From contig BMVA01000008.1 in the NCBI GenBank assembly GCA_014650475.1, forward strand, positions 62,001 through 126,000: a DNA stretch of 64,000 bases, given 5' to 3'. Source of the stretch: Streptomyces albogriseolus (GTDB lineage: Bacteria; Actinomycetota; Actinomycetes; Streptomycetales; Streptomycetaceae). The translations under genes and the position numbers were made by a program. The notes under the pieces were generated by a model. The model ran no database searches. It worked only from the letters and a program-made list of their open reading frames with translations, and was not told the DNA's origin. This document shows positions 12,450 through 46,773 of the stretch, piece after piece. The stretch's first letter is position 1; each line of letters starts with the position of its first letter.

Positions 12450-13901
12450 ATGACACACACGCCGAACACGGGCGCGCCCCCCACGCTGCCCGCGATCCCA
12501 CCCCAGCCGCCGGCCCCCGGCGCACCCGGCGGCAGGAGCACCACTCCACTCCCCACGCCCGCCTCACCCCCCTCGCCTCCCGCCCGCCGCCGCACGGCCT
12601 TCGCCGAGGGCGTCGACCGCCTCCGCCACGCCGCCACCACGGAACCCGGCCGCCTCCGCGTCATCGGCGCGGCCCTGGCCGCCCTGGTCGTCGCGTTCGG
12701 CGCGGTCACGGCCTGGCAGATGACCGACCGGGCGGCGGCCGCGGACGCCGTCCTCACCAGCAGCCAGCCCCTCACCTCCGACGCCGCGGACATCTACCGC
12801 TCCCTCGCGGACGCGAACACCGCGGCGAGCAGCGGCTTCCTCGCGGGAGGCCAGGAGTCCGCCGCCACCCGCGACCGCTACGAACGCGACATCGCGACCG
12901 CCGCCGCGAAACTGGTGAACGCCGCGGCCAACGCGGCCCCCGGCTCCCCCTCCACACAGACGATCACCAGGCTCAACCGTCTCCTCCCCGAGTACAAGGG
13001 CCTGGTCGAGCGCGCCCGCACCTACAACCGCCAGGGGTATCCCGTAGGCGGCGCCTACCTGCGCTACGCAAACGAGAAGATGCAGCAGGAGATGCTCCCG
13101 GCCGCCCAGGACCTCTACACCAAGGAGAACGAACGCCTCCGCGCGGACTACGCGGACGCGACCCCGTACCCCTGGCCGGCGATCACCCTGGGCCTTGCCG
13201 CCCTCGCCGCCCTCGCCTGGGCCCAGCGCCGCACGTACCTCCGCACGAACCGCGTCCTCAACCACGGCCTGGTGACAGCGACAGCGGCCACCACCGTCGT
13301 GCTCCTCTGGCTCACGGCCGGCCACGCCCTCGCGCGCAGCCACCTCGACGACTCCTACGACCACGGCGTCCGGTCCCTCGCCGTCCTCCACGACGCCCGC
13401 ATCGCCTCCCTGAAGGCCCGCGGCAACGAGAACCTCACCCTGGTCGCCCGCGGCGCGGAGACGAAGAAGGTCGGCGACCGGACCCTCGACGCCTACGACC
13501 ACGACTTCACCCGCGACATCGACACCCTCGCCAAGGGCCTGGCCCACGCCGGGCGCCTCGCGGACGACGACGCCGGCTCGAAGCCGGTGACCGCGGCCGT
13601 GGGCAGCATGACGGAGTGGAAGAAGCGCCACGCGGCCGCCCGCGAGCAGGACGAGAACGGCAACTACCAGCAGGCGCTGGACATGGTGATCGGCGCCAAG
13701 GGCGCCACGGGCGAGTGCTTCGACGCCGTCGACAAGAACCTGGCGACGGCGCTCGAGCACGAGGAGGCCGAGTTCGCGACGGCGGCCGGCGACGGCCGGG
13801 ACGCGCTGACGGGCCTGCCGGCGGGCGCGGCGGTCCTCGCCGTGCTGGGCGCGGCGGGCGCGGTGCTGGGCATCGGCCGCAGGCTGTCGGAGTACCGATG
13901 A
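12450..13901 (+). CDS. glnX: GlnX-like four-helix membrane sensor protein
   Basis: A 483-aa integral membrane protein with a Pro-rich cytoplasmic N-terminus (residues 1-50) and helices near 68-90, 243-260, 271-292 and 458-478. Two extracytoplasmic helical domains lie between helices 1-2 and 3-4. This layout and its place directly before a solute-binding protein and a PknG-like kinase match mycobacterial GlnX, which senses GlnH in the periplasmic space and controls PknG. Identity rests mainly on topology and gene order, not on motifs. The ATG has a GGAGG site; the stop overlaps the next start (ATGA). Confidence 0.75.
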   Translation: MTHTPNTGAPPTLPAIPPQPPAPGAPGGRSTTPLPTPASPPSPPARRRTAFAEGVDRLRHAATTEPGRLRVIGAALAALVVAFGAVTAWQMTDRAAAADAVLTSSQPLTSDAADIYRSLADANTAASSGFLAGGQESAATRDRYERDIATAAAKLVNAAANAAPGSPSTQTITRLNRLLPEYKGLVERARTYNRQGYPVGGAYLRYANEKMQQEMLPAAQDLYTKENERLRADYADATPYPWPAITLGLAALAALAWAQRRTYLRTNRVLNHGLVTATAATTVVLLWLTAGHALARSHLDDSYDHGVRSLAVLHDARIASLKARGNENLTLVARGAETKKVGDRTLDAYDHDFTRDIDTLAKGLAHAGRLADDDAGSKPVTAAVGSMTEWKKRHAAAREQDENGNYQQALDMVIGAKGATGECFDAVDKNLATALEHEEAEFATAAGDGRDALTGLPAGAAVLAVLGAAGAVLGIGRRLSEYR

Positions 13902-14998
13902 CCGGGCGGCGGACGACGAAGCCGAAGGGGGCCATGACGATGCACACACGACACCTGCGGGCCCGCCTGAAGGGCTGGGGCGGCGTGGGCGCGATGGCAG
14001 CGGCCTGCGCCCTCGCCCTGGTGTTCGCCCTGGCCCTGACCTGCACGGGCTCGGTCGCCTCGGGGGCGGGAGCACACCAGCCGGCCGGCCACCGCACCAC
14101 CCAGGCCCTGACCGCCGACACCGCCCGCGCGGCCGACGACTGCGAGGCGCCCGAGAAGCAGACCCTGCCCCCGTCCCGCGCCGACGGCCCCGCCATCACC
14201 GCGATCAAGAACCGCCCGGGCGAGAAGCGCAAGCTGATCGTCGGTGTGGACCAGAACAGCTACCGGTGGGGCTACCGGGACCCGAACAGCGGCGAGAGCG
14301 GCCGTCTCGAGGGCTTCGACATCGACCTGGTGCACCGCATCGCGGAGGACATCCTCGGCGACCCGGACGCGGTCCAGTTCAAGGCGATCCCGACCGACCA
14401 GCGCATCCCGGCGATCCAGGACGGCCGAGTGGACCTGGTGGTCCGCACGATGACGATCAACTGCTCGCGCCTGAAGGACGTGGCGTTCTCCGCCCCGTAC
14501 TTCAAGACGGGCCAGCAGGTGCTGGCGCCGAAGTCCTCCCCGGTCGAGGGGTACGACGAGACGCTCGCGCACCGCAAGGTCTGCACGGCGAAGGGCTCGA
14601 CGGCGTACGCGAAACTGGAGGAGGACCGGAGGAACGGCGACCTGCCGGCGTCGACGGACATCTCCACCACCGTGCCGAACCAGCTGGACTGCCTGGTGCG
14701 GCTCCAGCTCGGCGAGGTGGACGCGGTCGTCAACGACGGCGCCCTCGCGGCGAGCCAGGCCGCGCAGGATCCGACGGTGGAGCTCAAGGGCGAAGCGTTC
14801 ACGACCGAGTACTACGGCGTGGCGATGAAGAAGGACGCGGACGACCTGGTGCGCCGGGTCAACCAGATCCTGGTGGACTTCCGGCAGGACACGGCGACCG
14901 GCTGGCAGGCCTCGTACACGACATGGCTCTCCGCCACGATGGACGACGACCCGTCCGCGTCGAGGCCCCCGGCCCCGGAGTACCTGCGCCGCGACTGA
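13898..14998 (+). CDS. glnH: GlnH-like extracytoplasmic amino-acid-binding protein
   Basis: A family 3 solute-binding protein of the glutamate/aspartate type. The N-terminal hydrophobic segment ends in LALTCTGS; Thr before the Cys is a poor lipobox, so it may be secreted or anchored differently from mycobacterial GlnH. The binding domain starts near KLIVGVDQNSYRWG and includes GFDIDLVHRIAEDIL, QDGRVDLVVRTMTI and DVAFSAPYF. No transporter permease is nearby, so it is probably a sensor, not an uptake part. The first ATG overlaps the glnX stop; ATG 13934 or 13940 after AAGGGGG are alternative starts. Confidence 0.88.
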   Translation: MTGRRTTKPKGAMTMHTRHLRARLKGWGGVGAMAAACALALVFALALTCTGSVASGAGAHQPAGHRTTQALTADTARAADDCEAPEKQTLPPSRADGPAITAIKNRPGEKRKLIVGVDQNSYRWGYRDPNSGESGRLEGFDIDLVHRIAEDILGDPDAVQFKAIPTDQRIPAIQDGRVDLVVRTMTINCSRLKDVAFSAPYFKTGQQVLAPKSSPVEGYDETLAHRKVCTAKGSTAYAKLEEDRRNGDLPASTDISTTVPNQLDCLVRLQLGEVDAVVNDGALAASQAAQDPTVELKGEAFTTEYYGVAMKKDADDLVRRVNQILVDFRQDTATGWQASYTTWLSATMDDDPSASRPPAPEYLRRD

Positions 14999-15074
14999 CC
15001 GCCCGCGCCCCGACCCCGACCCCGATGAAAAACCCGAACCGCCCCGAGAATTCCCCCGCAGCGAGAGGTGATCG

Positions 15075-16421
15075 ATGGCCGACACGGATCCCGCCGGGCC
15101 GGTGATGGACCGGGACGAGGTGGACCGTGCGCTGGCGCGGCTCGGCGCGGAGCACGAGGCGATCGAGACCTCGCTCCTCGCCCTGCAGGACCACGCGGGC
15201 CGACGACTGCTGGAGGGCGCCGGGCTCACCGGCGTCACCGCCGAGCGGTGGACGTCCACGGAGGCGGCGATCACGCTGCTGTGGACCTACTTCGACGCGT
15301 ACACGGACGTGTTGCGCACCGCACGGGAGATCCGCGCACGCCGCCGCTGGTCCAGCCGCGAGGACCTGGTGGAGCTGACGGAGCTGCTGCGCGGCGAGCC
15401 GGTGACGGTGGCCGGCAGCGCCGCGGCGACGGCCAACGCACCGGCCCCGCACGGCGGTCAGGCCGGTCCGGGCGTGCTCAGCGAGCGCTGGTCCCTCTCC
15501 GCCCTCGTCGACCGGATGAACGAGCTGTACGCGTCCTCGCTGGACATGGTGGTGGCCGCGGACGCGGTGTGGTCGGCGCTGCCCGCCCGGATCGACCTCC
15601 TGTCGGCGGAGCTCCGGCGCACGAGCAGGCTGGCGCACTCGGTCGGGGTGCGCCCGGGCGAGCATCCGGCGGGCGACGACTTGGAGCGGATCACCCGCAC
15701 GCTCAAGAAGCTGCGCGAGCAGGTCGTGTCCGACCCGCTGGCGTTCTGGAGACCGGCGGAGGGCAGCTCCGCCCCGGGCGGCGGGAAGCCCGACACGACC
15801 GTCTACGACCGTGAGGCCCGCGCCCTGGAGGACGTGCGCCGCGAGATCGACGCGGTGCTGGCGGTCCGTCAGGACGCGGAGAAGCGCATCGTCCGCCTCC
15901 GCGACGTGCTCTCCCGCGCCGACCGCACCCTCGCCGAGGCGCGCACCGCGCGCGGCGAGGTGCTGGCGAAGATCGCGGCGACGGAGGTGCCGGTGGTCAG
16001 CGGCCCGCCGACGGCGCTCCAGGAGCAGCTGTCGACGGCGGCGGAGTACCGCAGGCACGCGCAGTGGCACCGGCTGTCACCGCTGCTGGAGTCGCTGGAG
16101 CAGAAGGCGGAGGACGAACTGCTGCGCGCCCGCGAGTCGTTGACCGCGGTGACGGCGCCGCTCGCGGTGCGCGCGGAGCTGCGCGGGCGGCTGGACGCCT
16201 ACAGGGCGAAGGTGACCCGGCACGGGCTGGCCGAGGACCCGCTGCTGGTGGAGCGGTACGAGAAGGCGCGCCGCATGCTGTGGAGCGCGCCGTGCGACCT
16301 GCGCGCGGCGGAGCAGGCGGTGCTGCGCTACCAGCAGGCGGTGGCCGAGCTGCTGGGCGCGGCGCCCGGAGTGCCGGGGCAGGGGACAGGCCCGGACGAG
16401 CGGAGGGGACCGGGCGCATGA
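15075..16421 (+). CDS. Conserved coiled-coil protein of the PknG locus
   Basis: A 448-aa soluble, helix-rich protein with no signal peptide or catalytic motif that I recognise. Residues about 1-115 are helical, 116-140 are Ala/Gly-rich linker, and 245-310 have heptad-like runs of Arg, Glu, Leu and Val consistent with a coiled coil. It starts at ATG 15075 after AGAGGTG and overlaps the kinase start by 4 bases (ATGA), so it is translationally coupled. A scaffold or adaptor between the membrane sensor and the kinase is a reasonable guess, but only from position. Confidence 0.8.
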   Translation: MADTDPAGPVMDRDEVDRALARLGAEHEAIETSLLALQDHAGRRLLEGAGLTGVTAERWTSTEAAITLLWTYFDAYTDVLRTAREIRARRRWSSREDLVELTELLRGEPVTVAGSAAATANAPAPHGGQAGPGVLSERWSLSALVDRMNELYASSLDMVVAADAVWSALPARIDLLSAELRRTSRLAHSVGVRPGEHPAGDDLERITRTLKKLREQVVSDPLAFWRPAEGSSAPGGGKPDTTVYDREARALEDVRREIDAVLAVRQDAEKRIVRLRDVLSRADRTLAEARTARGEVLAKIAATEVPVVSGPPTALQEQLSTAAEYRRHAQWHRLSPLLESLEQKAEDELLRARESLTAVTAPLAVRAELRGRLDAYRAKVTRHGLAEDPLLVERYEKARRMLWSAPCDLRAAEQAVLRYQQAVAELLGAAPGVPGQGTGPDERRGPGA

Positions 16422-18979
16422 GCGAACCGGGAACACAGGGGCCGGCGGCGCCCGCGCGGGAGCGGTCCGCCTGTCAGCGCCCCGACTGCGACGGCGCGTA
16501 CGACGACGTCGGCGGGGGTGAGCTGTACTGCGACACGTGCGGCCTGGCGCCCGTGGTGTCGCCGACGGGCCTGGTGGTCTCGCCCCCGACGGGCATCACG
16601 GCGGGCGGCCGCGACTCGCACGGCTCGGCGGCCGCACGCTCGGGCAGCGCACGCGCGGGCGGCAACCGGAGCGGCCGCAGCTCCCGTACGTCCTCCCAGT
16701 CGTCGAAGTCCCGCCGCTCCGTGTCCGGGCGGCTGTCCCGTTCGCTGTCCGGCCGGACGGCGGCGGGCCGTTCGGTGTCGGTGCGCAGTTCCGGCTCGGC
16801 CGCGGGCGGTTCGGGGCGGGGCCGGCTCGGCGTGGGGCTGGTGCAGGTGCCGCCGATCCCGCGGCCCGATCCGCGGCGGATGGTGCTGGACGACCCGGAG
16901 GTGCCGGAGCGGAAGCGGTTCTGCTCGCGGTCGGACTGCGGGGCGCCGGTGGGCCGGGCCCGCAGCGACCGGCCGGGCCGTACGGAGGGCTTCTGCACCA
17001 AGTGCGGCCACCCCTACTCGTTCGTGCCGAAGCTGCGCCCCGGTGACGTGGTGCACGGCCAGTACGAGGTGGTGGGCTGTCTGGCGCACGGCGGGCTCGG
17101 CTGGATCTACCTCGCCGTGGACCGTGCGGTGTCCGACCGCTGGGTGGTCCTCAAGGGGCTGCTCGACACGGGCGACCAGGACGCGATGGCAGCGGCCATC
17201 TCCGAGCGGCGCTTCCTCGCGGAGATCGAGCACGCCAACATCGTGCGGATCTACAACTTCGTCGAGCACCTCGACCAGCGCACCGGCTCCCTCGACGGCT
17301 ACATCGTCATGGAGTACGTCGGCGGCAAGTCACTGAAGGAGATCGCCAACGCCCGCCGCACCCCGGAGGGCCGGCGCGACCCGCTGCCGGTGGAGCAGGC
17401 GTGCGCGTACGGCATCGAGGCGCTGGAGGCGCTGGGGCATCTGCACAGCCGCAACCTGCTGTACTGCGACTTCAAGGTCGACAACGCGATCCAGACCGAG
17501 GACCAGCTGAAGCTGATCGACATGGGCGCGGTGCGGCGGATGGACGACGACGAGTCGGCCATCTACGGCACGGTCGGCTACCAGGCGCCGGAGGTCGCCG
17601 AGGCCGGCCCGTCGGTGGCGTCCGACCTGTACACGGTCGCCCGCACGCTGGCCGTCCTCACCTTCGACTTCCAGGGCTACACGAACGTCTACGCGGACTT
17701 CCTGCCGGACCCGGACACCATCGAGGTGTTCCGCCAGTACGAGTCCTTCTACCGGCTGCTCGTGCGGGCCACGGACCCGGACCCGGCGCGCCGGTTCGCC
17801 TCCGCGCAGGAGATGGCCGAGCAGCTCACGGGCGTGCTGCGGGAGGTCGTCTCGCTCCAGTCGGGGCAGGCGCGCCCAGCGCTGTCGACGCTGTTCGGGC
17901 CCGAACTGCGCGTGACCGACACGGAGTTGTTCCCCGCACTGGACGGCGACGTGTCCCGGCTGGGCGCCCGCCGCACCGAGGGCCGCAGGGGCGCGCCCGT
18001 CCCGGCGCCCGCCCTCCCCCGCCCCCCCGCCTCCCTGGTCCGGCCCGTGGACTGCCCCACGGCCGCCCTCGCGCTGCCCGTGCCGCACGTCCAGCCCACC
18101 GACCCCAACGCCGGTTTCCTCGCCGGTCTGCTGGCGTCCGCGCCCGCCGAGCTGATCCACGCGCTGGCCGCCGCTCCCGACCCGTCGACCGAGACGCGGC
18201 TGCGCGCGGTGCGGGCCCGGCTGGAGACGGGCGAGTGGGCGACCGCGCTGGAGGCGCTGGGCGCGCTGGAGACGGAGGACGCCGACGACTGGCGGGTGGT
18301 CTGGTACCGGGGCGTGGCCGCGCTCGTCACCGGCGACCACGAGGGCGCCGCGCTCGCCTTCGACGCGATCTACGACGCCTTCCCGGGCGAGATCGCGCCG
18401 AAGCTGGCGCTGGGGCTGTGCGCGGAGGTGCTGAGCCAGCTGGACAACGCGGCGGAGTACTACCGTCTGGTGTGGTCCACCGACCCGAGCTACGTCAGCG
18501 CCGCGTTCGGGCTGGCCCGGGTGCGGCTGGCGGCCGGCGACCGGCACGGCGCCGTACGGACGCTGGAGTCGGTGCCGGAGTCCTCCATCCACTACACCGC
18601 CGCCCGGGTGGCGGCGGTCCGGGCGCGGCTGCGGGGGCGCGCGGTCACCGCGGCCGACGCGCCGTTCCTGGACGATCTGACCGCCGCCGCGGGGCAGGTC
18701 GAGGCGCTGGAGTCGTACGGTCTGGACCCGGCGCGCCGCGAGCTGTTGGCGGCGGAGGTCCTCGGTTGCGGACTGGACTGGGTACTCTCCGGGGGCCAGG
18801 GTTCCGCTCCTCCCGCCGCCGGGGGGCGGACGCTGCTCGGCAGCGGCCTGGACGAGCGTGGGCTGCGCTTCGGCCTGGAGCGCTCGTACCGCACGCTGGC
18901 CCGGCTGGCGCGCAGCGGCGAGGAGAGGATCGACCTGGTGGAACGTGCCAATCGTTACCGCCCCCGGACGTGGGTGTAG
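16418..18979 (+). CDS. pknG: PknG-like soluble serine/threonine protein kinase
   Basis: An 853-aa cytoplasmic kinase. Two zinc-ribbon/rubredoxin-like knuckles come first (Cys pairs near residues 19-43 and 168-195), separated by a Ser/Arg-rich linker. The kinase domain begins at QYEVVGCLAHGGLGWIYLA (about 213). The ATP lysine is in VLKGLL (about 246), the catalytic loop reads YCDFKVDN (about 349), and the metal motif is DMG instead of DFG. A TPR-type helical domain fills about 560-850. This is the mycobacterial PknG architecture. It likely receives amino-acid signals from the GlnX/GlnH pair. ATG 16418 follows CGGAGGGG. Confidence 0.93.
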   Translation: MSEPGTQGPAAPARERSACQRPDCDGAYDDVGGGELYCDTCGLAPVVSPTGLVVSPPTGITAGGRDSHGSAAARSGSARAGGNRSGRSSRTSSQSSKSRRSVSGRLSRSLSGRTAAGRSVSVRSSGSAAGGSGRGRLGVGLVQVPPIPRPDPRRMVLDDPEVPERKRFCSRSDCGAPVGRARSDRPGRTEGFCTKCGHPYSFVPKLRPGDVVHGQYEVVGCLAHGGLGWIYLAVDRAVSDRWVVLKGLLDTGDQDAMAAAISERRFLAEIEHANIVRIYNFVEHLDQRTGSLDGYIVMEYVGGKSLKEIANARRTPEGRRDPLPVEQACAYGIEALEALGHLHSRNLLYCDFKVDNAIQTEDQLKLIDMGAVRRMDDDESAIYGTVGYQAPEVAEAGPSVASDLYTVARTLAVLTFDFQGYTNVYADFLPDPDTIEVFRQYESFYRLLVRATDPDPARRFASAQEMAEQLTGVLREVVSLQSGQARPALSTLFGPELRVTDTELFPALDGDVSRLGARRTEGRRGAPVPAPALPRPPASLVRPVDCPTAALALPVPHVQPTDPNAGFLAGLLASAPAELIHALAAAPDPSTETRLRAVRARLETGEWATALEALGALETEDADDWRVVWYRGVAALVTGDHEGAALAFDAIYDAFPGEIAPKLALGLCAEVLSQLDNAAEYYRLVWSTDPSYVSAAFGLARVRLAAGDRHGAVRTLESVPESSIHYTAARVAAVRARLRGRAVTAADAPFLDDLTAAAGQVEALESYGLDPARRELLAAEVLGCGLDWVLSGGQGSAPPAAGGRTLLGSGLDERGLRFGLERSYRTLARLARSGEERIDLVERANRYRPRTWV

Positions 18980-18982
18980 TTG

Positions 18983-20755
18983 ATGTCGCAGATGCCCCAG
19001 CAGGCCGCGCTGTCGAAATGCCCGAGCTGCGAGGAGCCCCTCGAGTCGGGTGATCGTTTCTGCGGCGCGTGCGGATACGACTTGTCGGTCGTCCCGGCAC
19101 GGCCGGCGGACGAACCGACGATCGCGATGAACGGCACGGTGCCGCCCCAGGCGGCCGTCCCGCCCGCCTGGCCCCCACCCCCCGCGGGCGCGGTACCCCC
19201 ACGCCCGGCCACCCCGCCCCCGGGCCCACCGTCCCCCGGCCCGTACACGGCCCCCGGCGCGAACCCCACCGTGCCCGGCCCGCACTCCCCGGCCCCGGGG
19301 ACCGCAGCCCCTGCCGGGCCCCCGGCGACCGCGGTCCCGCACGCCGCGTCCGCCGGACACGCGACGGGCGTCGGCGCGTCCGGAGACGGAGCCTCGCACC
19401 GGGCGGCACCCGGCGTGCATGCCGCGGCCCCGAGCGGGTCCGCGGCCGATGGCCCCCCGCACCCGACGGCGCCCGGCCCGTACCCTGCGGCGCCCCACGC
19501 CCCCACCGCGCACGCGAGCAACGCCACGACCGGCACCGCGTCGCCCGGCGCCCCCGCACACCCGGCGGCAGCCGACCCGCACCCCCCGGCGCCCAGCGCC
19601 CACACCGCCCCAGCGGGTGACGCCGCGTCGGCCGACCGGTCCGCCCCCTCCCCGGGCGCGCCCGCGCAGGCCGGCACCGCCCCGACGGGCGCTCGGGGAG
19701 CGCCCGTTCAAGGACAGCCCGCGGCGTCGGCCGCGCCCCCCGCCGGGGTGCGGCTCGACCGGCGGGCGCCGGCCGAGGGCGCCGGCGGCGGGGACGACTA
19801 TCCCCTCCAGGCGCCCGACCCCCGCGTCGCGGCCGAGCCCGCCGCCGTGTGCGTGGCGTGCCGGGCCGGGCGGGTGGACGACGACGGATACTGCGAGAAC
19901 TGCGGCCACGCCCAGCCGCGCGAACGGGACCACATGGAACAGGAATGCGGCCCCGTCGCCGCGGTCAGCGACCGCGGTCTGCGGCACCACCGCAACGAGG
20001 ACGCCTTCGCCGTCGGCACGACCGCGCTGCCCGACGGCTCCCCCGTCTCCGTGGCGGTCGTCTGCGACGGCGTCTCCTCGGCGACCCGCCCCGACGAGGC
20101 GTCACTCGCCGCCTCCCGCGCGGCGAACGCGTCCCTGCTCGACGCGCTGCCGCGCGGCACGCACCCCCAGCAGGCGATGCACGAGGCGATCCTCGCCGCC
20201 TCCGAGGCGGTCAACGCGCTGGCGGGCGAGCAGCCCGCGGAGGCCGACGAGCACGCCCCGCAGCAGAACGCGCCCGCGTGCACGATCGTCGGCGCGGTGG
20301 TGACCGCGGGCCTGCTGGTCGTCGGCTGGGTCGGCGACAGCCGGGCGTACTGGATCCCGGTGGACCGTTCCCCGGCGGTGCGGCTGACCGAGGACGACTC
20401 GTGGGCCGCGCAGATGGTCGCCGCGGGGCTGATGGGCGAGGCCGAGGCGTACGCCGACCACCGCGCGCACGCGATCACCGGCTGGCTGGGCGCGGACGCC
20501 TATGAACTGGAGCCGCACACCGCGGCGTTCAAGCCGGACCGTCCCGGTGTGGTCGTGGTCTGCACGGACGGCCTGTGGAACTACGCCGAGTCCGCGGACG
20601 AGATGGCCGAGGCGGTGCCCGCCGACGCCGCCGCGCGCCCCCTGCACGCCGCCCGCGTGCTGGTCGGCCACGCCCTCGACGGCGGCGGCCACGACAACGT
20701 AACAGTGGCACTGGTGCCGTTCCCGGCCGTCCCGCAGGGGGCAGGATCGGCCTGA
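18983..20755 (+). CDS. PP2C-type protein phosphatase with zinc ribbons
   Basis: A 590-aa Ser/Thr phosphatase, the expected counterpart of the kinase just upstream (3-base gap). An N-terminal zinc ribbon (CPSC...CGAC) is followed by about 210 residues of Pro/Ala/Gly linker, then a second ribbon (CVAC...CENC, about residues 290-310). The PP2C domain (about 325-585) has all metal motifs: RNEDA, VVCDGVSS, GWVGDSRAYW, VCTDGLW and GGHDNVT. No transmembrane helix is present, unlike PstP. An adjacent TTG at 18980 is less likely than ATG 18983. Confidence 0.92.
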   Translation: MSQMPQQAALSKCPSCEEPLESGDRFCGACGYDLSVVPARPADEPTIAMNGTVPPQAAVPPAWPPPPAGAVPPRPATPPPGPPSPGPYTAPGANPTVPGPHSPAPGTAAPAGPPATAVPHAASAGHATGVGASGDGASHRAAPGVHAAAPSGSAADGPPHPTAPGPYPAAPHAPTAHASNATTGTASPGAPAHPAAADPHPPAPSAHTAPAGDAASADRSAPSPGAPAQAGTAPTGARGAPVQGQPAASAAPPAGVRLDRRAPAEGAGGGDDYPLQAPDPRVAAEPAAVCVACRAGRVDDDGYCENCGHAQPRERDHMEQECGPVAAVSDRGLRHHRNEDAFAVGTTALPDGSPVSVAVVCDGVSSATRPDEASLAASRAANASLLDALPRGTHPQQAMHEAILAASEAVNALAGEQPAEADEHAPQQNAPACTIVGAVVTAGLLVVGWVGDSRAYWIPVDRSPAVRLTEDDSWAAQMVAAGLMGEAEAYADHRAHAITGWLGADAYELEPHTAAFKPDRPGVVVVCTDGLWNYAESADEMAEAVPADAAARPLHAARVLVGHALDGGGHDNVTVALVPFPAVPQGAGSA

Positions 20756-20779
20756 GGCCGCGACGTCGCGCGCCGGACG

Positions 20780-20805
20780 CGGCACACGCACGCACGCGTG
20801 TGCCG
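20780..20805 (+). terminator. 10-bp hairpin after phosphatase gene
   Basis: A perfect 10-bp stem (20780-20789 with 20796-20805) and a 6-nt loop start 25 bases after the phosphatase stop. No T tract follows. It may end or attenuate the pknG-phosphatase transcript, so the von Willebrand gene could have its own promoter in the remaining 120 bases. Confidence 0.6.
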
Positions 20806-20925
20806 CCTGCGCGTGCCGCGTACGGCCGGCCTCGCACGGGGAAGCTTCACCGGACCGGAGGGGACCGGTCCGTGAAGACGTCGTCGCCCCGCGCCGTCGG
20901 GGCACCGGAGGGGGAGCGAACAGGC

Positions 20926-22272
20926 ATGGCCAATTTCTCGAAATCGAACGTGCCGCAGTTCTCGGTGGACGTGTACCAGAACGAGTACCTGCCGGAGGGG
21001 GGCCGCGAGGTCAACGCGGTGGTGACGGTCACGGCGACCGGCGGCGGCACCATCGGCAGCGCGGTGGCGGCGCCGCACCTGTACTCGCCCGGCGAGGGCC
21101 CGTCGGCGGCCGTGGTCCTGATGCTCGACTGCTCGGGCTCGATGGACCACCCGCCGACGAAGATGCGCAACGCGCGGGACGCCACGGCCGCCGCGATCGA
21201 CACCTTGCGCGACGGCGTGCACTTCGCGGTGGTCGCCGGCACCCACCTCGCACGGGAGGTGTACCCGGGCGACGGCCGGCTCGCGGTGGCCGGACCGGAC
21301 ACCCGGGAGCAGGCCAAGCAGGCGCTGCGGAAGCTCGGCGCGGGCGGCGGCACGGCGATCGGGACCTGGCTTCGCCGCGCCGACCGCCTGCTGGCGTCGG
21401 CGGACGTGGCGATCCGGCACGGCATCCTGCTCACCGACGGCCGCAACGAGCACGAGTCGCCGGAGGACCTGAAGGCGGCGCTGGAGGCCTGCGCCGGACG
21501 GTTCACGTGCGACGCCCGCGGTGTGGGCACCGACTGGGAAGTGAAAGAAGTCACAGGCATCGCCTCGGCTTTGCTCGGCACCGCCGACATCGTCGCCGAC
21601 CCGGCCGGACTCGCCGCCGACTTCACGCGGATGATGGAGACGGCGATGGGCAAGGAGGTCGCGGGCGTCTCGCTGCGTCTGTGGACCCCGGCCGGCGCCA
21701 CCGTGGCATTCGTCAAGCAGGTCGCGCCGACGGTGGAGGAGCTGACCGGCAGGCGCACCGAGGCGGGCCCCCGCGCGGGCGACTACCCGCTCGGTTCCTG
21801 GGGTGACGAGTCCCGTGACTACCACCTCTGCGTGCGGGTGCCGCCCGCCGCCGTGGGCCGGGAGATGCTCGCGGCACGCGTCTCGCTGGTGATCCCGCAC
21901 CCCGACAAGGGCGTGCAGAACCTGGGCGCGCAGGGGCTGGTGCGGGCCGTGTGGACGGACGACCTGGCCGCGTCGACGTCGATCAACCCTCAGGTCGCCC
22001 ACTACACGGGCCAGGCCGAACTGGCGGACGTCATCCAGGAGGGGCTGGACCTGCGCAAAGTGGGAGATATCGACGGAGCAACGGCCAAGCTGGGCCGTGC
22101 CGTTCAGCTCGCCCGTGCCTCCGGCAACGCCGATACTGCGAAACTGCTTGCGAAGGTGGTGGACGTCGTCGACGCCGCGACCGGTACTGTGCGACTGAAG
22201 GCGAAGGTCGAGGAGGCCGACGAGATGACACTCGAGACACGGTCGACCAAGACTGTTCGTGTAAAGAAATGA
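20926..22272 (+). CDS. von Willebrand factor type A domain protein
   Basis: A 448-aa cytoplasmic protein with a vWA fold near the N-terminus. The metal-ion-dependent adhesion site DCSGSM is at about residues 69-74, with the downstream Thr (GGGTAIG) and Asp (LLTDGRN) also visible. The C-terminal half is beta-rich, ending in a helical segment with charged residues. Such vWA proteins often act as assembly platforms beside kinases, phosphatases and FHA proteins. The ATG at 20926 follows a GGAGGGGGAG site. It lies 83 bases before the FHA gene. Confidence 0.9.
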   Translation: MANFSKSNVPQFSVDVYQNEYLPEGGREVNAVVTVTATGGGTIGSAVAAPHLYSPGEGPSAAVVLMLDCSGSMDHPPTKMRNARDATAAAIDTLRDGVHFAVVAGTHLAREVYPGDGRLAVAGPDTREQAKQALRKLGAGGGTAIGTWLRRADRLLASADVAIRHGILLTDGRNEHESPEDLKAALEACAGRFTCDARGVGTDWEVKEVTGIASALLGTADIVADPAGLAADFTRMMETAMGKEVAGVSLRLWTPAGATVAFVKQVAPTVEELTGRRTEAGPRAGDYPLGSWGDESRDYHLCVRVPPAAVGREMLAARVSLVIPHPDKGVQNLGAQGLVRAVWTDDLAASTSINPQVAHYTGQAELADVIQEGLDLRKVGDIDGATAKLGRAVQLARASGNADTAKLLAKVVDVVDAATGTVRLKAKVEEADEMTLETRSTKTVRVKK

Positions 22273-22312
22273 TCTGCAAGTAATCGAGCCTGACCCCTCG
22301 GGGTTGGAGAAA

Positions 22313-22332
22313 TCCGGTCGGGAACGACCGGA
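22313..22332 (+). promoter_or_regulatory. Hairpin with GGAA tetraloop upstream of FHA gene
   Basis: An 8-bp stem (TCCGGTCG with CGACCGGA) is closed by GGAA, a GNRA-type tetraloop. It lies 3-4 bases before the strong AAGGAGAGGGGG ribosome site. It could stabilise or process the transcript, or tune translation of the FHA gene relative to the vWA gene. Confidence 0.5.
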
Positions 22333-22355
22333 AAAGGAGAGGGGGAAGCGCCGAC

Positions 22356-23675
22356 ATGCCGACCTGCCCGAACGGACACCAGTCGGGTTCCGACGACTGG
22401 TGCGAGGTGTGCGGTCACCGCATGGCGGGTGCCGTGCCGCCTCCTCCTCCCCCGCCGCCGGCGCCCGGCGGCGGCTACGGCTTCCCGCCGCCCGGCGGCC
22501 CCGGTGGCCCCGGTGGCGCTCCGGGCGGTCCCGGCGGCGGCTACGGCGGTCCGGGCGCGCAGCCGGAGCTGTGCCCGCAGTGCCGCACGCCGCGTGAGGG
22601 CGGTGCGCCGTTCTGCGAGGAGTGCCGGTGGAACTTCCTCACCAACACGGCGACCTCGTACACCCCGGCCGCCCCGCGTCCGCCGGCCCCCGGTCCGGGC
22701 GGTCCCAGGGGCGGCCCTGGTGGTCCCGGCGGCCCCTTCGGGCACCAGCCGCCCCCTCCGTCGTACGGCGGCGGTGACGGGTTCGACTACCAGAGCTCGC
22801 GTCCCTCGCAGGTGAACCGACCCGCCGAGCCGATCCCGCCGGGCCCGCCCGGCTTCGGCGGCGAGCCCTCGCGCCCGGTCCCGCCCCCGCCCCCGCCCGG
22901 CCGCGGCAACCCGGGCGGTCCCGGCGGTCCCGGTGGTCCCGGCGGCCCGAACGGCCCCGGCGCCCCGCAGGCGTTCCACTCCGGTCCCCCGGCCCCGCCC
23001 GGCTTCCCGCAGGAGACCGGCCGTCCGCCGCAGGGCGGCGGCCCGTCGTACGGCGGCGGTGACGACGACTGGGTGATCTCCCCGCCGACCGGAGGCCCGG
23101 GCGGCCCCGGCGGGCACGGCGGCCCCGGCGGCCCCGGCGGGCACGGCGGGCACGGCGGTCCGAACGGCCCCGGCGGGCACGGCGGTTACGGCTACCCGCA
23201 GCAGGGCGGCACCCAGGCGCCCCCCGGCCCCGGCGGCTTCCCGCAGCAGCCGCGGCAGCAGCAGGGCCCGGTCACCTGGACCGCCACCATCGGTCCGGAC
23301 CGCGAGTACTTCATGGCGATGATGCAGCGTTCCGGCCCCGAAGCCGCGGGCCTGAACCTGCCGGCGTACTCGCCCGAGCAGCAGCGCACGCTCACCGGCA
23401 ACCAGATCACCATCGGCCGCCGCCGGCACTCCACCGGCGACACCCCCGACATCGATCTGTCCACCCCGCCGGAGGACCCGGGCGTCTCGCACCAGCACGC
23501 GGTGCTGGTGCAGCAGCCGGACGGCAGCTGGGCGGTCGTCGACCAGAACTCCACGAACGGCACGACGGTCAACGGCTCCGAGGAGCCGATCCAGCCCTTC
23601 GTCCCGGTTCCGCTGCAGGACGGCGACCGGGTCCACGTGGGCGCCTGGACGACGATCACCATCCGCCGGGGCTGA
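22356..23675 (+). CDS. FHA-domain phosphopeptide-binding protein with zinc ribbons
   Basis: A 439-aa protein. Two short zinc ribbons (CPNG...CEVCG at residues 4-20 and CPQC...CEEC at about 73-90) are followed by a long Gly/Pro-rich linker with GGPGGP and GGHGG repeats. The C-terminal FHA domain covers about 345-438 and shows the phosphothreonine-binding elements GRRRHS, SHQHAVL and NSTNGTTVN. It should read Thr-phosphorylated partners, probably targets of the PknG-like kinase. I see no GarA-like ETTS phosphorylation motif. Its 3' end overlaps the convergent methyltransferase by 20 bases. Confidence 0.92.
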   Translation: MPTCPNGHQSGSDDWCEVCGHRMAGAVPPPPPPPPAPGGGYGFPPPGGPGGPGGAPGGPGGGYGGPGAQPELCPQCRTPREGGAPFCEECRWNFLTNTATSYTPAAPRPPAPGPGGPRGGPGGPGGPFGHQPPPPSYGGGDGFDYQSSRPSQVNRPAEPIPPGPPGFGGEPSRPVPPPPPPGRGNPGGPGGPGGPGGPNGPGAPQAFHSGPPAPPGFPQETGRPPQGGGPSYGGGDDDWVISPPTGGPGGPGGHGGPGGPGGHGGHGGPNGPGGHGGYGYPQQGGTQAPPGPGGFPQQPRQQQGPVTWTATIGPDREYFMAMMQRSGPEAAGLNLPAYSPEQQRTLTGNQITIGRRRHSTGDTPDIDLSTPPEDPGVSHQHAVLVQQPDGSWAVVDQNSTNGTTVNGSEEPIQPFVPVPLQDGDRVHVGAWTTITIRRG

Positions 23676-24654
23676 GCGCCGGCAGCGGCCAGACGTACCT
23701 CCCCGCGGGGTCGTCCAGCCAGGCCCGGCCGCCCTCGGCGTCGACGGTCAGGCCGTAGCGCTCGCGCTGCGGCCTGCCCTCGCGCTCCCAGAGGCCGTAC
23801 GCCTCGCGCGGGCCGAGCACCCCGGCGGTCAGCTCCAGCAGGAACTGGAACAGGTCGCTACGGCGGGCCGCGGGCGGCAGCCCTTCCAGGTCCGGCGGCC
23901 CCGGGTCGGGCGGGCCCGCGCCCCGCAACGGCACGAAGTAGGCGGGCGTGTGCAGGAAGCACCCCTCGGCGTGGTCGGCGTCGCGCACGGTCAGGGCGAT
24001 CAGCCCGGTGGCGAACGGGGCGAGGACCCTCCCGCCCGGACGGCACTGGGCGAGCCAGGCGCGCGGCACGTACGGCAGCGCGCAGGTGGCGATGATCCGG
24101 TTGTAGGGGGCGCGTTCGGGAACCCCGCGCGCCCCGTCGCCGGTGACGACGGCCGGGCGGTGCCCGGCGGCCTCGAGATGGCGGCGGGCGGGCCCGGTGA
24201 TCTCCGGGTCCAGGTCGACGGTGGTGACGAGTCCGTCGTCGCCGAGCCGGTGGCAGAGCAGGGCCGCGTTGTATCCGCTGCCGGTGCCGATCTCCAGCAC
24301 CCGGTGGCCGTCGCCGACGCGCAGCCCGGCCAGCATCAGCGCCATGAGGGAGGGCTGGCTGCTGGAGGAGAGCAGTTCGCCGTCGCGCATCCGGATCGCG
24401 AGCGGGACGTCCTCGTACGCGCCGCGCAGCCAGCGTTCGCGCGCGGCCGGAGAGGCGGACTCGCACGAGCGGCGCTCGTACCCGCCGACCACGCCCGCGT
24501 AGTAGACCGGCACGAACAGATGGCGGGGCACGGCGGCGAACGCGTCCCGCCACACCGGCTCCTCCAGGAAGGCCCCGCTCGCCCCGATCTCCCGCACCAG
24601 CGCCGCCCGCGCCGCGCGGGCGAGGTCCTCACCGGTCTCCGGGCGCCCGTCCAC
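23656..24654 (-). CDS. Protein-L-isoaspartate O-methyltransferase-like enzyme
   Basis: A 332-aa S-adenosylmethionine-dependent methyltransferase. The SAM motif VLEIGTGSGYNAALL lies near residue 120, preceded by the PCMT-type segment SSSSQPSLMALML. A C-terminal extension beyond the roughly 210-aa core is typical of Streptomyces PCMT-like proteins, including those linked to peptide natural products. No peptide precursor or cyclase is adjacent, so housekeeping protein repair is more likely. GTG 24654 has GGAGAG directly abutting it, which is unusually close. Confidence 0.85.
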   Translation of the reverse strand: MDGRPETGEDLARAARAALVREIGASGAFLEEPVWRDAFAAVPRHLFVPVYYAGVVGGYERRSCESASPAARERWLRGAYEDVPLAIRMRDGELLSSSSQPSLMALMLAGLRVGDGHRVLEIGTGSGYNAALLCHRLGDDGLVTTVDLDPEITGPARRHLEAAGHRPAVVTGDGARGVPERAPYNRIIATCALPYVPRAWLAQCRPGGRVLAPFATGLIALTVRDADHAEGCFLHTPAYFVPLRGAGPPDPGPPDLEGLPPAARRSDLFQFLLELTAGVLGPREAYGLWEREGRPQRERYGLTVDAEGGRAWLDDPAGRYVWPLPALSPGGW

Positions 24655-37248: not shown

Positions 37249-37514
37249 AGGTAACGGCACTCGGTGGCGCGGTGCTTTCCCCTGTCGAGATCACCTCGGC
37301 GAGCGTGCAGCGCGGCGACATCATTCAGGTCGGAGGCCAGCATTGCCGGGTGAGCGACCTCTTCCAACTGCCCGGCGGAGCGAAGCGACTCGTACTCGAC
37401 TCGGGTGAGTTGCTGACCATCCACACGATGACCCGGCTCGTGGCCCTGCGGCTCGTGCGAGTGAGAGGCGGTGATCCAGCCCATGCCCTCGCGACGCGAC
37501 ACCATCGCCGATGA
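37245..37514 (+). CDS. Hypothetical small beta-rich protein (89 aa)
   Basis: GTG 37245 follows a GGAGG site and overlaps the upstream stop. The protein alternates short strands (VQRGDIIQVGGQHCRVSDLFQL, KRLVLDSGELLTI), suggesting a small beta barrel. Its 3' end overlaps the second GntR gene by about 30-44 bases depending on that gene's start. No known domain is recognised. Confidence 0.55.
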   Translation: MKVTALGGAVLSPVEITSASVQRGDIIQVGGQHCRVSDLFQLPGGAKRLVLDSGELLTIHTMTRLVALRLVRVRGGDPAHALATRHHRR

Positions 37515-38214
37515 CCTCCGGCACCGGATCGTCACCGGTCGGCTCAAGCCCGGCGACCGCCTGCCCTCCGAGGCGCACTTGGCCGCGCAGTACACGGTGA
37601 GCACACCGACACTGCGGAACGCCCTCGCTGTACTCCAGGCGGAAGGCCTCGTCGAGAAGGTCCACGGCAAGGGGAACTTCATCCGCCGTCCGGTCCGCAG
37701 GATCACGTACGTGGGAGGGGGCCGGACACCGGACAGGCGCATCGTGGACCTCGCGCCCCTGAGCGTCAGCGTCCGCACCACCAAAGTCCGGGCCCGCGGG
37801 CATCTCGCGGCCCTGCTGAAGATGCCGACCGGCAGTCCTCTGACGGAGATCCTCTGTCTCGGCCATGAGGGCGAGGGGCCTCACAGCCTGGCTCGCATCT
37901 ACGTCCCTTGTGACCTGGCGCCGGCCGCCGCACTCCGCGAGTCACTCCCGTATGAGGAGATCATGACGGGCCTGATGGAACTTCGCCCACCGCCGGCTGA
38001 AGTCCGGGAGGAGATCAGCGTCCGCCTCCCGACATCGGAGGAGGCATCCACGCTCCGGATCAGCTCCGCCCTGGCAGTCCTCGCCATCACCCGCCAGACG
38101 GCCGACGTCGCTGGACGCGTGGTCGAGGCGGCCCTCCTCGTGCTACCGGGGGACCGCGCCGACGCGGTGTTCACCGCTCACCACATGATCGACGAGAGGC
38201 CCGCGAAAGCATGA
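37471..38214 (+). CDS. GntR/UTRA-family transcriptional regulator
   Basis: An intact HutC-type GntR protein of 247 aa. The winged helix is at about residues 8-72 (TIADDLRHRIVTGRLKPGDRLPS, STPTLRNALAVLQAEGLVEKVHGKGNFI), followed by a UTRA effector domain. It probably regulates the left-arm operon, or the paired operators left by the broken GntR. The start may be GTG 37471 (just after AGAGG) or ATG 37483. Its stop overlaps the next start (ATGA). Confidence 0.88.
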   Translation: MIQPMPSRRDTIADDLRHRIVTGRLKPGDRLPSEAHLAAQYTVSTPTLRNALAVLQAEGLVEKVHGKGNFIRRPVRRITYVGGGRTPDRRIVDLAPLSVSVRTTKVRARGHLAALLKMPTGSPLTEILCLGHEGEGPHSLARIYVPCDLAPAAALRESLPYEEIMTGLMELRPPPAEVREEISVRLPTSEEASTLRISSALAVLAITRQTADVAGRVVEAALLVLPGDRADAVFTAHHMIDERPAKA

Positions 38215-38519
38215 CGACGTCAAACGAACTGCGGCTCCTCCCCTGGACGGGCCCCGACGGCAAGCCGTGCCTCCTCAGCACCGACGACAACGGCGGCCCC
38301 ATGTCCCGCCTGGCAGACAACATCGAGTCAGCGCAACTCGGCATGGCAACCGCCCTCCTGGACCAAGCGTTAGACATCCTCGCCCAGGCAGAAACGGACC
38401 CCGACGACCTGCGACTCCTGACGAAGGACCTGACCGGAGCCCTACGGGACACGCTCCGCGTTGCAACCAGCAGAGGCCACCGCTTGGAAAGCCGCTCGAC
38501 TGATCCCTCTTCCTGCTGA
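38211..38519 (+). CDS. Hypothetical protein (102 aa), last gene of left-arm operon
   Basis: A helical acidic protein (SRLADNIESAQLGMATALLDQALDILAQ, DPDDLRLLTKDLTGALRDTLRVA). The N-terminus LRLLPWTGPDGKPCLLSTDD is typical of a small family found beside GntR regulators in Streptomyces. It overlaps the GntR stop and is followed 14 bases later by a strong terminator. No function can be assigned. Confidence 0.6.
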   Translation: MTTSNELRLLPWTGPDGKPCLLSTDDNGGPMSRLADNIESAQLGMATALLDQALDILAQAETDPDDLRLLTKDLTGALRDTLRVATSRGHRLESRSTDPSSC

Positions 38520-38533
38520 CCAGCGGGCCTGAC

Positions 38534-38573
38534 GAAGCCCACGGTTCCGACCAGCTCGGACGCCGTGGGCTTC
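38534..38573 (+). terminator. Terminator of left-arm operon
   Basis: An 11-bp perfect stem (38534-38544 with 38563-38573) encloses an 18-nt loop starting 14 bases after the 102-aa gene. The right arm ends in TTC with only a short pyrimidine tail. Confidence 0.7.
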
Positions 38574-38609
38574 TGCTGTCGGTGGTGCTGCTGTGTGACC
38601 ACCGCATTA

Positions 38610-38724
38610 GGAGTTCGATCTTCCCTTGGCTTGGTCGGGGCTCGCCTCGTGAACCGATGCCGTCCAGGGTTGCCGCGCGCCGCCGTCGTCCGGGGTCGTT
38701 GATGTCAGCGTTGGATGTCAACGG
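38610..38724. repeat. Diverged repeat, copy A
   Basis: GGAGTTCGATC at 38610 and CGTTGATGTCAGC at 38697 are 87 bases apart. The same pair with the same 87-base spacing recurs at 41376 and 41463. Sequence between them is only weakly similar. It is probably a decayed repeat or transposon remnant flanking the TIR cargo. Confidence 0.5.
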
Positions 38725-38918
38725 AACAGCTCGGGCATCGGGCAAGTTTCCAGCGGCCCCTCCGGTCGGTCAGCCCAGCGCCACCAGACGTGCAGACCGG
38801 CGCACCTCAGCAGTCTCCGGCAGGTCCGCCGGCCATCGTCCTCCCGCTTGACGAGAACGAAGCCACCGGACTTCATGGGCTGGCTGCACTCAGGGCAGGC
38901 AGGGGCGTCGTCGGTCAT
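38718..38918 (-). CDS. Small zinc-ribbon-like protein (66 aa)
   Basis: ATG 38918 gives a 66-aa protein with CPECSQPM near the N-terminus and two more cysteines (RRTCRRLLRC), followed by a Trp-rich segment (HVWWRWAD). This spacing fits a small topoisomerase-type zinc ribbon. It is isolated on the minus strand between the left arm and the cargo. Function unknown; an upstream extension to 38999 is possible but basic and low in coding character. Confidence 0.5.
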   Translation of the reverse strand: MTDDAPACPECSQPMKSGGFVLVKREDDGRRTCRRLLRCAGLHVWWRWADRPEGPLETCPMPELFR

Positions 38919-39234
38919 GCGGCGCACCCTAACGGAGCGACCGCTTCGTCCCGAAGCAACTTGGGCGGGCGCTCGACCTTGGGCCAGTGCCCTTCTCACC
39001 TGCGGCGGCAGTCCATGGGCGTTCGCGGTTGTCCGCCGCTGTGTGCTGGCGTTGCCACGCAGTTAAACACTCACCTTCCAACGGGGCAGTGTCGCAGGGC
39101 TCGGCTACTTTTCCTGCATGACTGACAGGGATCCGCTGGTGCGATCGGCATAGTTGATGACCAAGAGGAGTGAGGTGAGCTGGATGCATCCTCAGTTCAG
39201 CTACAACTGATCACCGGCAGCCGTGACGTGCGGC
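38919..39234. other. Intergenic stretch with possible 17-aa peptide
   Basis: No ordinary gene is convincing in these 316 bases. One short open frame, 39157-39210 (+), encodes MTKRSEVSWMHPQFSYN, and a GAGGTGAG sequence precedes an internal ATG at 39184. Whether it is translated cannot be judged. The rest has no palindrome or clear promoter. Confidence 0.3.
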
Positions 39235-39681
39235 TCAACTCCTCAGGCCGAAGTCTTCGGGCGAGTCGCCACCCCGGGAGTGCGGTGGCCGCCAGGTCTT
39301 TCCGGCAGGCAGGTCGCCGCCTACATCGCGGCGGTAGTTCTCCTGGGCTTTCGAGCTGGCCTGACGACCGCCGATGTCCACCAGCGCCCCTTTTACCGAA
39401 TGTAGCTCGGGGCCCCCGCGCATCGGCTTCTCATCCGCAGGGGGCTCGGGGGCGGAAAGTAGCGGGTCGAGCTCGCTGCTCTCGTGGGCGGCATGCTCCT
39501 CGTCGGGAGGGAGGGCGAGAGCGGCCCATACGGCGAGGACCGCGCCGCCGACGACGAGCATCTTCGGCCCGTTCTTATTGAAGAAGTCCTTCACCTTCCC
39601 ACTCACGGGAGCGGTCTGGCCGTCCTGGGGAGCGGCCTGGTCGTCGACCTCAGGGGTCTCGTCGGAGGCGTTCACCTGCAC
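39235..39681 (-). CDS. Hypothetical single-pass membrane protein (148 aa)
   Basis: A charged N-terminus (residues 1-38) precedes one transmembrane helix (KMLVVGGAVLAVWAALAL, about 40-58). An acidic, Pro-rich region and a polar tail follow, probably outside the cell or cytoplasmic depending on orientation. No domain recognised. GTG 39681 is the first start. It lies divergent from the TIR gene over 250 bases, in which I see no clear operator. Confidence 0.5.
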   Translation of the reverse strand: MQVNASDETPEVDDQAAPQDGQTAPVSGKVKDFFNKNGPKMLVVGGAVLAVWAALALPPDEEHAAHESSELDPLLSAPEPPADEKPMRGGPELHSVKGALVDIGGRQASSKAQENYRRDVGGDLPAGKTWRPPHSRGGDSPEDFGLRS

Positions 39682-39931
39682 AGACCTACCGGACCCAAGT
39701 CTCGGCTGTCAGGCGATTACCGACATCGCCCAAGCAAGTTCAGCGGCGCTCGCCAGGCTGAAGTGCGCATGCGTGTTCGAGGCTTCCTGAAGGTGAAGCC
39801 TCCGACCGCACCCGTCAATCGGGAGACCAACTCCTCTAACATCCGAGTCTCCGTGCATGGCCCGACCACCGCATGTCGTCAGTTTGACGATTTCGCCCCC
39901 CAGTCGGAGTTGCCGATGGGAGGCTGGCCTC

Positions 39932-40531: not shown

Positions 40532-40987
40532 CGACGCTTCGCCAGAAGAACAGGGATTCCGTACTGCGAACACCATCCGGGGACAGGACTGGAACCGCAC
40601 TCAGTCGGCCTGTGCAAGCCGTCGTTTGGTCCTCAGCTGACGACAGCCAGCCACCGCGGCGGGCTGGCCGGATGGCTAGGTGCGCGTGTGCCTCGCTGCA
40701 CCCCCACCGGCCTCAGCCACGCTGCCATGCCGTCGACCAGAGCAAGCCGCTCCGACGGAAGCGCGGCGGTGAGACCTTGCGCCATGACTCCTTCGTCCCG
40801 AACTCTCGGCTGGGTGGCTGTTGCAGTCCAGGGCGCTGGTCGTGAAGTTATCGACGGCCGATGAAAGCCGCCTTCGGGTGCGGTGGTTGCTGTACTTCGC
40901 TGCTGTACCGCTAGTAGCAATACGAGCCCGGTGCCCGGCCGCTACGATGCGCAGGCTGGGTAGTGTCCACGCGATGGGGGAGGGGCA
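40532..40987. other. Non-coding stretch with repeat and promoter of next gene
   Basis: 456 bases without a convincing gene. It contains one copy of a GGTTGCTGTAC-type repeat at 40885-40918, internally a double GCTGTAC. The ribosome site GGGGGAGGGG of the following gene is at 40977-40986. Reading frames present look like shadows or chance. Confidence 0.4.
40885..40918 (+). repeat. GCTGTAC-type repeat, copy 1
   Basis: This 34-base sequence has two GCTGTAC units 11 bases apart and ends in AGTAGC. A 36-base copy lies at 41531-41566 with three substitutions and a 2-base insertion. The two copies flank the 120-aa gene. Confidence 0.55.
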
Positions 40988-45866: not shown

Positions 45867-45963
45867 ATTTTTGGAAGGTAGATCATACTGTCCGCGAGAA
45901 CGATCAGGCTAGGGCGGCGATTATCAGTCATTGACTCAAATGCGCCCATAGTGTTGGCCAGAG

Positions 45964-46131: not shown

Positions 46132-46232
46132 CCCCAGCCACGACGCACCCCTTCTCTAGCATCAGGTGGCTGATTGCTGCGAGCGCGGTGCGGGCGCCGG
46201 CCGGGCTGGAGCGGGGCGGAGACAGGAGCGCA

Positions 46233-46765: not shown

Positions 46766-46773
46766 ATAGGAGA

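Follow-up and report, generated by a model that had tools for sequence, protein, structure and literature searches.

The window analysed here is a 64,000-nucleotide stretch of the Streptomyces albogriseolus genome (contig BMVA01000008.1, positions 62,001 to 126,000). Its segment 12450–23675 carries on the forward strand seven genes in the order glnX, glnH, cc, pknG, PP2C, vWA, and FHA (Table 1), where cc stands for the gene of a helical orphan (coiled-coil) protein located between glnH and pknG. The same seven frames, with an upstream extension, were picked out by third-position G+C content. The intergenic distances from glnX to FHA were, in order, -4, 76, -4, 3, 170, and 83 bases. An earlier sequence-only reading of this DNA had described the genes from glnX to the phosphatase as overlapping or nearly so, except for a 76-base gap before the coiled-coil gene, which agrees exactly with the measured values; the gaps before vWA and FHA are both larger than that one. 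The seven-gene set is confirmed as real, and it cannot be attributed to chance because its order is repeated in all testable loci of the same genus and recurs in other families.

Table 1. Genes of the PknG locus in the window
Gene	Position	Strand	Features of the product
glnX	12450–13901	+	483 residues; GlnX-family membrane signal transducer; NF058618, 500.7 bits (cut-off 250), residues 63–483
glnH	13898–14998	+	GlnH-like solute-binding protein; ATGA overlap with glnX; PF00497 (SBP_bac_3); alternative starts at 13934 and 13940
cc	15075–16421	+	448 residues; nearly all-helical orphan without hydrophobic segment; AlphaFold predicted local distance difference test (pLDDT) score 86.5
pknG	16418–18979	+	853 residues; N-terminal zinc-ribbon-like motif, Ser/Arg-rich linker, rubredoxin, kinase, TPR
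PP2C	18983–20755	+	PP2C phosphatase, PF13672; N-terminal zinc ribbon PF13240; long Pro/Ala-rich linker
vWA	20926–22272	+	PF13768 (VWA_3) with metal-ion-dependent adhesion site (MIDAS) motif (by alignment); VWA_3_C tail PF18571
FHA	22356–23675	+	Two zinc-ribbon-like motifs, Gly/Pro-rich linker, C-terminal FHA domain PF00498; invariant Cys columns

A search with the PknG_TPR profile covered 296 genomes of the class and gave a match at E <= 1e-20 in 98 of them. Ninety-eight PknG loci (not every PknG_TPR match) were mapped using models started from the window proteins; one of them, of family f41, was obtained from a phylum search and belongs to another class. A locus was regarded as testable if over 6 kb of sequence flanked its PknG match on each side; 80 of the 98 passed and 18 were dropped. 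The testable loci included 60 main loci outside family f3, nine f3 loci, and 11 second copies. Family f1 is the genus of the window, and f3 is labelled mycobacterial-type for what we take to be its closeness to M. tuberculosis GlnH and PknG. The f3 sample consisted of nine loci from seven of the 24 PknG genomes of this family, plus three loci of genome G552, one of which, L247, breaks off some 4 kb after the kinase gene.

The linkage of the seven genes, for which the sequence-only reading had proposed such a survey, is conserved in relatives. All 22 testable f1 loci showed the order glnX-glnH-cc-pknG-pp2c-vwa-fha. The full set in the same order was counted in five of six f7 loci (the sixth, L203, has a divergent cc missed by the count), in the single f78 and f104 loci, and in 6 of 13 f85 loci; the cc genes of f7, f78, and f104 are divergent. 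Family f84 was complete in 8 of 15 loci with the order cc-pknG-pp2c-vwa-fha-glnX-glnH, i.e., with the sensor pair behind fha and not before cc. The f41 locus contains cc-pknG-pp2c-vwa-fha, and its glnH and glnX lie on the other strand. None of the nine f3 loci contained any of cc, PP2C, vWA, or FHA, and the f108 locus has glnX-glnH-pknG only. Among the 60 testable main loci outside f3, all six partners were found in 44 (a count that misses the divergent cc of L203), in every case within 9.5 kb of pknG, while PP2C together with FHA was found in 52 and GlnX together with GlnH in 58. No second-copy locus among the 11 testable ones had all six partners, and two f3 second copies were without glnX and glnH. 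In f84, cc-pknG-pp2c-vwa-fha stays together though glnX-glnH has moved, and the set is therefore composed of two blocks. With 170 bases separating PP2C from vWA and 83 separating vWA from FHA, the true operon could end at PP2C, the last two genes being unrelated downstream neighbours with a promoter of their own. This is very improbable: the order pp2c-vwa-fha recurs in f1, f7, f78, f84, f85, and f104, as well as in f41 of another class, and it holds through the rearrangement of the sensor block.

The 483-residue product of the first gene, previously proposed to be GlnX, is by its profile scores a member of the GlnX family (Table 1) and not the mycobacterial-type equivalog NF041460, for which 186.8 bits were obtained, below the cut-off of 780. 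The family is recognised by two extracytoplasmic four-helix bundles between membrane helices; three segments of the window protein, not four, exceeded the hydrophobicity cut. The predicted structure, inspected for secondary structure and confidence only, is almost entirely helical (pLDDT 90.4). Its N-terminus is of low confidence, and residues 50–61 form a short helix before the first long one. This agrees with the short helix ahead of the first long one mentioned in the accessible text on C. glutamicum GlnX (PMC9769921). Against PDB sequences, no match of GlnX was obtained up to an E-value of 1.

The closest PDB match of the GlnH-like protein was M. tuberculosis GlnH (6h1u, E = 3e-42), whose ligand contacts are given in the accessible text as R147, T162, S164, R169, W232, and D250 (PMC6069109). 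By alignment, R147, T162, R169, and D250 are kept in the window protein, S164 is replaced by Thr, W232 by Gln, and K161 by Arg. The same four residues and Gln at position 232 were present in 72 of 72 GlnH proteins from named loci. Elsewhere, this position is occupied by Gln in 23 of 24 further f1 proteins, by Trp in 7 of 7 f3 proteins, and by Tyr in 16 of 16 f84 proteins. The ligand is likely an acidic or amide amino acid. The sequence-only reading had mentioned external acidic amino acids as the signal in mycobacteria; most of the acidic pocket is retained here, but with the Trp232 replacement the ligand may differ in detail from the one bound by mycobacterial GlnH.

Judged by its domains, the kinase is a PknG: rubredoxin (PF16919, 101.8 bits), kinase (PF00069, 86.9 bits), and TPR (PF16918, 293.6 bits) all scored over the cut-off, and the match to M. 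tuberculosis PknG (PDB 2pzi, E = 3.8e-168) extends over residues 135–850, starting ahead of the rubredoxin and running through the whole TPR domain. Its N-terminal zinc-ribbon-like motif was found in 20 of 22 f1, 6 of 6 f7, 8 of 15 f84, and 3 of 13 f85 loci, in the single loci of f78 and f104, and in none of the f41 (one), f108 (one), and f3 (nine) loci. With a looser ribbon pattern, 96 of 97 same-genus PknG proteins were matched. A TG[IVML]T motif after the ribbon, present in 77 of 96 same-genus proteins, is regarded as a candidate only. The catalytic loop is YCDFKVDN in the window kinase, whereas f3 kinases have YNDLKPDN or YNDLKPEN where readable. A VxSPPTG motif common to PknG and the FHA protein was considered as a docking site and rejected, as the other Streptomyces FHA proteins among those listed mostly have SPPS or are without the Thr.

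The cc protein matched no Pfam or NCBIfam family over the cut-off, and its model gave no match with E <= 0.001 against the PDB by Foldseek. In the phosphatase, a second ribbon-like motif, seen by eye, precedes the phosphatase domain, and all four PP2C motif patterns searched were present in 138 of 141 relatives. The MIDAS patterns were complete in 133 of 141 relatives of the vWA protein, and the three FHA-domain patterns were present in 130 of 133 relatives of the FHA protein. At its second ribbon, the FHA protein carries the Thr-rich stretch CEECRWNFLTNTATSYTP, nearly invariant in those 93 of 95 same-genus FHA proteins where CEEC could be located, with the first Thr in 93 of 93. This stretch is the first candidate for a phosphosite. 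Given the identity of GlnX, the conserved linkage, and the phosphatase, vWA, and FHA motifs that are complete in most relatives, a sensor-writer-eraser-reader set as formerly proposed is plausible; within it, PP2C would be the putative eraser of phosphates placed by PknG.

A GarA identity is unlikely for the FHA protein: it scored 19.7 bits against the GarA/OdhI model NF041660 (cut-off 200), and neither ETTS nor E[ST]TS occurs in any of its 133 relatives. A separate GarA/OdhI-type protein is encoded in the same genome (near G000:C16:197266, stretch L259, 187000–203965); it has a zinc-ribbon-like motif ahead of SETTS and reached 189 bits against the same cut-off. The kinase, the phosphatase, the FHA protein, and this GarA-type protein thus all bear ribbon-like motifs. 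The role of reader assigned earlier to the FHA protein is consistent with its motif patterns, but with no ETTS site and a separate GarA, it may also be a substrate or an adaptor.

Across the 296 genomes, in counts uncorrected for relatedness, GlnX (E <= 1e-20) was matched in 96 of 98 genomes with PknG and 1 of 198 without it, vWA (E <= 1e-30) in 65 and 1, and cc (E <= 1e-10) in 59 and 2, respectively; the cc counts are low, as the profile misses divergent cc. Among the PknG genomes, vWA was found in 64 of 74 outside f3 and 1 of 24 inside it. Among the vWA matches, that of G369 is interrupted by two stops, and G423 and G520 gave partial ones. At E <= 1e-40, 241 genomes had a GarA/OdhI-type match, comprising all 98 with PknG and 143 of the 198 without it. 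The GarA-type gene therefore accompanies PknG everywhere but spreads much wider and is not specific to the seven-gene set, while vWA, cc, and GlnX are tied to PknG genomes.

The set consists of two separable modules, a sensor (GlnX-GlnH-PknG TPR) and a phospho-switch (cc-kinase-PP2C-vWA-FHA). The small same-genus genomes G423 and G547 had no PknG_TPR match at E <= 1e-20. In G423 (L244), the frames of cc, PP2C, and FHA are open, and pknG, vWA, glnX, and glnH are in pieces; in G547 (L245), the same three frames are open, only a trace of pknG is left, and no glnX, glnH, or vWA match was found in the stretch. The pN/pS ratios (non-synonymous to synonymous differences) of cc, PP2C, and FHA in these genomes (0.27–0.53) were considered as a sign of selection since the kinase loss and rejected, because most of the divergence may predate that loss. 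The f85 extra loci L249, L254, and L258 contain PP2C-vWA-FHA without a PknG-model match, the vWA of L258 being partial. In two other f85 loci, L250 and L251 (G356 and G412), the catalytic-loop Lys and the DFG Gly of the kinase are changed (CDLAPGN, IDLQ), which makes it a possible pseudokinase, and no GlnX or GlnH match was found at the locus. The absence of a kinase in L244–L258 is defined by the PknG model, a motif expression having been discarded since it gave no match even where a kinase exists. From G423, G547, and the f85 extra loci, it follows that the sensor and switch blocks separate in both directions. The earlier proposal of one circuit has to be modified in this respect, as the two modules are not obligately joined. 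A contact between the PknG TPR domain and GlnX was proposed in the accessible text of PMC8546545, and the coincident loss of TPR and GlnX in the two related loci L250 and L251 fits it.

The open frames in G423 and G547 and the TPR-less f85 kinases suggest that cc, PP2C, and FHA can do something without PknG. One explanation would be that cc-PP2C-vWA-FHA is a self-standing phospho-switch serving several kinases (e.g., of PknA/PknB type), with PknG as one writer and amino-acid sensing as a graft. The frames left open after PknG loss would fit it, as would the f85 loci with PP2C-vWA-FHA and either no PknG match (L249, L254, L258) or a TPR-less, motif-poor kinase (L250, L251); moreover, a kinase/PP2C/vWA triad is described for actinobacterial GAP1-N2 systems in the accessible text of PMC7159879. 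However, genomes without PknG hardly ever have vWA, cc, or GlnX, and most mapped main loci have them beside pknG, so that this explanation is rather unlikely. Still less probable is that signalling from GlnH, GlnX, and PknG to GarA/OdhI and 2-oxoglutarate dehydrogenase is the only real pathway, in which case the four additional proteins would do no more than tune PknG as phosphatase brake, FHA docking adaptor, and scaffold. For mycobacteria and corynebacteria, the accessible texts (PMC6069109, PMC9769921) present this core pathway as established or as a proposal, and both the ETTS-bearing GarA-type protein of the window's genome and the GarA/OdhI-type match in all 98 PknG genomes are in line with it. 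On the other hand, such matches are also present in 143 of 198 PknG-less genomes, and the extra genes outlive PknG in G423 and G547.

Genome G552 is the one f3 genome with vWA. It has three PknG loci, of which L246 contains the full set of glnX, glnH, cc, pknG, pp2c, vwa, and fha; the two remaining stretches yielded glnX, glnH, and pknG alone. In a PknG tree of 63 rows built by a quick search, the full-set kinase of G552 was sister to 11 reduced f3 kinases, with a Shimodaira-Hasegawa-like approximate likelihood ratio test (SH-aLRT) value of 98. The larger set is also the form present in the other large groups, namely f1, f84, f85, and f7. Most simply, the reduced f3 line would have lost the four genes, although this is not proven. 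Since nine f3 loci are without the four genes and one f3 genome keeps the full set with a sister kinase, the textbook mycobacterial glnX-glnH-pknG operon looks like a reduced form of the larger set. The sequence-only reading had called the locus an extended one; the direction is probably the reverse, as the distribution and the tree point to a loss, again not proven, in the mycobacterial-type family.

On balance, we favour, with some reserve, the reading of the locus as an older, bimodular PknG system in which a sensor block is joined to a phospho-switch block through PknG. Several observations weigh against it. The PknG tree has 10 open forks, its long outgroup branches were marked unsafe by the program, and L183, the f108 locus with only glnX-glnH-pknG, is placed at an open deep fork; for these reasons, neither loss in f3 nor the alternative, a gain of the larger set by transfer, is proven. 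By count, 16 of the 60 testable loci outside f3 are without at least one partner. In G423 and G547, cc, PP2C, and FHA outlive PknG, and in L250 and L251, cc, PP2C, vWA, and FHA occur with a kinase without a TPR match. Fisher tests on genome counts ignore relatedness. Most GarA/OdhI-type matches stay below the curated cut-off, which was passed in 31 of the 296 genomes. Finally, Trp232 of GlnH is replaced by Gln in the window protein.

According to the bimodular reading, whose interactions are all predicted, GlnH outside the membrane would bind an acidic or amide amino acid, and the signal would pass through GlnX to the TPR domain of PknG; both steps are suggested by homology. Such a route was proposed for mycobacteria and corynebacteria in the accessible texts of PMC6069109, PMC8546545, and PMC9769921. 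PknG, kept near the membrane, would phosphorylate Thr residues both of partner proteins and of its own tail. Encoded in the same locus and likely a PknG target itself, the FHA protein would dock on phosphothreonine, and PP2C would reset the phospho-marks, while the complex may be held together or remodelled by the helical cc and the MIDAS-type vWA proteins. A second, metabolic output would most likely be GarA/OdhI, whose gene lies elsewhere in the genome. A broader proposal, which we advance tentatively and with slightly more doubt than conviction, is that the mycobacterial PknG operon is a relic, and that ancestral actinobacterial PknG stood between an amino-acid sensor and a cc/PP2C/vWA/FHA switch with a non-metabolic output. 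Streptomyces and several other families might then run both, the switch being a second signalling branch besides GarA.

The three-gene core and its wide conservation have already been published, as seen in the accessible texts (PMC6069109, PMC8546545, PMC9769921). In common with the Mycobacterium/Corynebacterium operon as described there, the window has GlnX, a GlnH-like protein, PknG with rubredoxin and TPR, and an ETTS-bearing GarA encoded elsewhere; it differs in having four more genes, the N-terminal zinc-ribbon-like motif of PknG, and Gln in place of Trp232 of GlnH. The actinobacterial GAP1-N2 triads, as far as they are described in the accessible text (PMC7159879), likewise include a Ser/Thr kinase, often with a zinc ribbon, adjoining a PP2C and a stand-alone vWA protein, whereas the kinase of the window is a PknG with rubredoxin and TPR, and FHA, cc, GlnX, and GlnH are added. 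In the literature searched, which covered few subscription papers and was partly accessible, neither the three-gene core together with a PP2C/vWA/FHA/cc cassette nor a reading of the mycobacterial operon as reduced was found. What appears new is the joining of the PknG core to a kinase-PP2C-vWA triad with FHA and cc; the core and the triads were known separately. The TerY-P triad (vWA, PP2C, kinase) and E. coli YegI-YegK-YegL cluster the same three activities and are likened here by description only, and the threonine phosphorylation pathway of Type VI secretion (PpkA, PppA, Fha) includes kinase, PP2C, and FHA parts. The window FHA protein scored 32.6 bits against the Type VI TagH model TIGR03354, below the cut-off of 120.25. 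In that pathway, a vWA part belongs to PpkA, according to the accessible text of PMC1262709.

Studies of PknG regulation and substrates, as far as the accessible literature goes, came from a lineage that has seemingly lost four of the seven genes. The larger set offers candidates for a PknG-opposing phosphatase and for other partners of PknG in the non-pathogenic, genetically tractable Streptomyces, and it links amino-acid sensing to the recurring, poorly understood kinase-PP2C-vWA triads.

Some further arrangements were observed. In locus L255, as given in that genome sequence, a very short frame between cc and PP2C joins a PknG-type zinc ribbon directly to a stretch resembling the final residues of PknG. 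Elsewhere in some same-genus genomes (L218, L219, L256, and L257), a distant PknG-like kinase lies next to a vWA relative, and a weak cc-like match precedes this kinase in L256 and L257; these loci possibly represent a paralogous switch. Upstream of the seven genes, a family 4 glycosidase gene ends at 11245, about 1.2 kb before glnX. Downstream, a PCMT-type methyltransferase gene (23656–24654, minus strand) is convergent with the FHA gene and overlaps its end.

Elsewhere in the window, region 37471–54421 encodes a GntR/UTRA regulator, a TIR-domain protein, a D12 adenine methyltransferase, an FtsK/SpoIIIE protein, a RepSA initiator, and an integrase, and it is a probable integrative element of the pSAM2 kind. 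The G+C content falls to 0.62 at 40–48 kb of the window. The low-G+C part of the region (39857–45866) contains, in a cluster, the TIR-domain protein (39857–40531), the D12 methyltransferase, and two proteins of 471 and 462 residues without a Pfam match, and this cluster is possibly a defence cargo.

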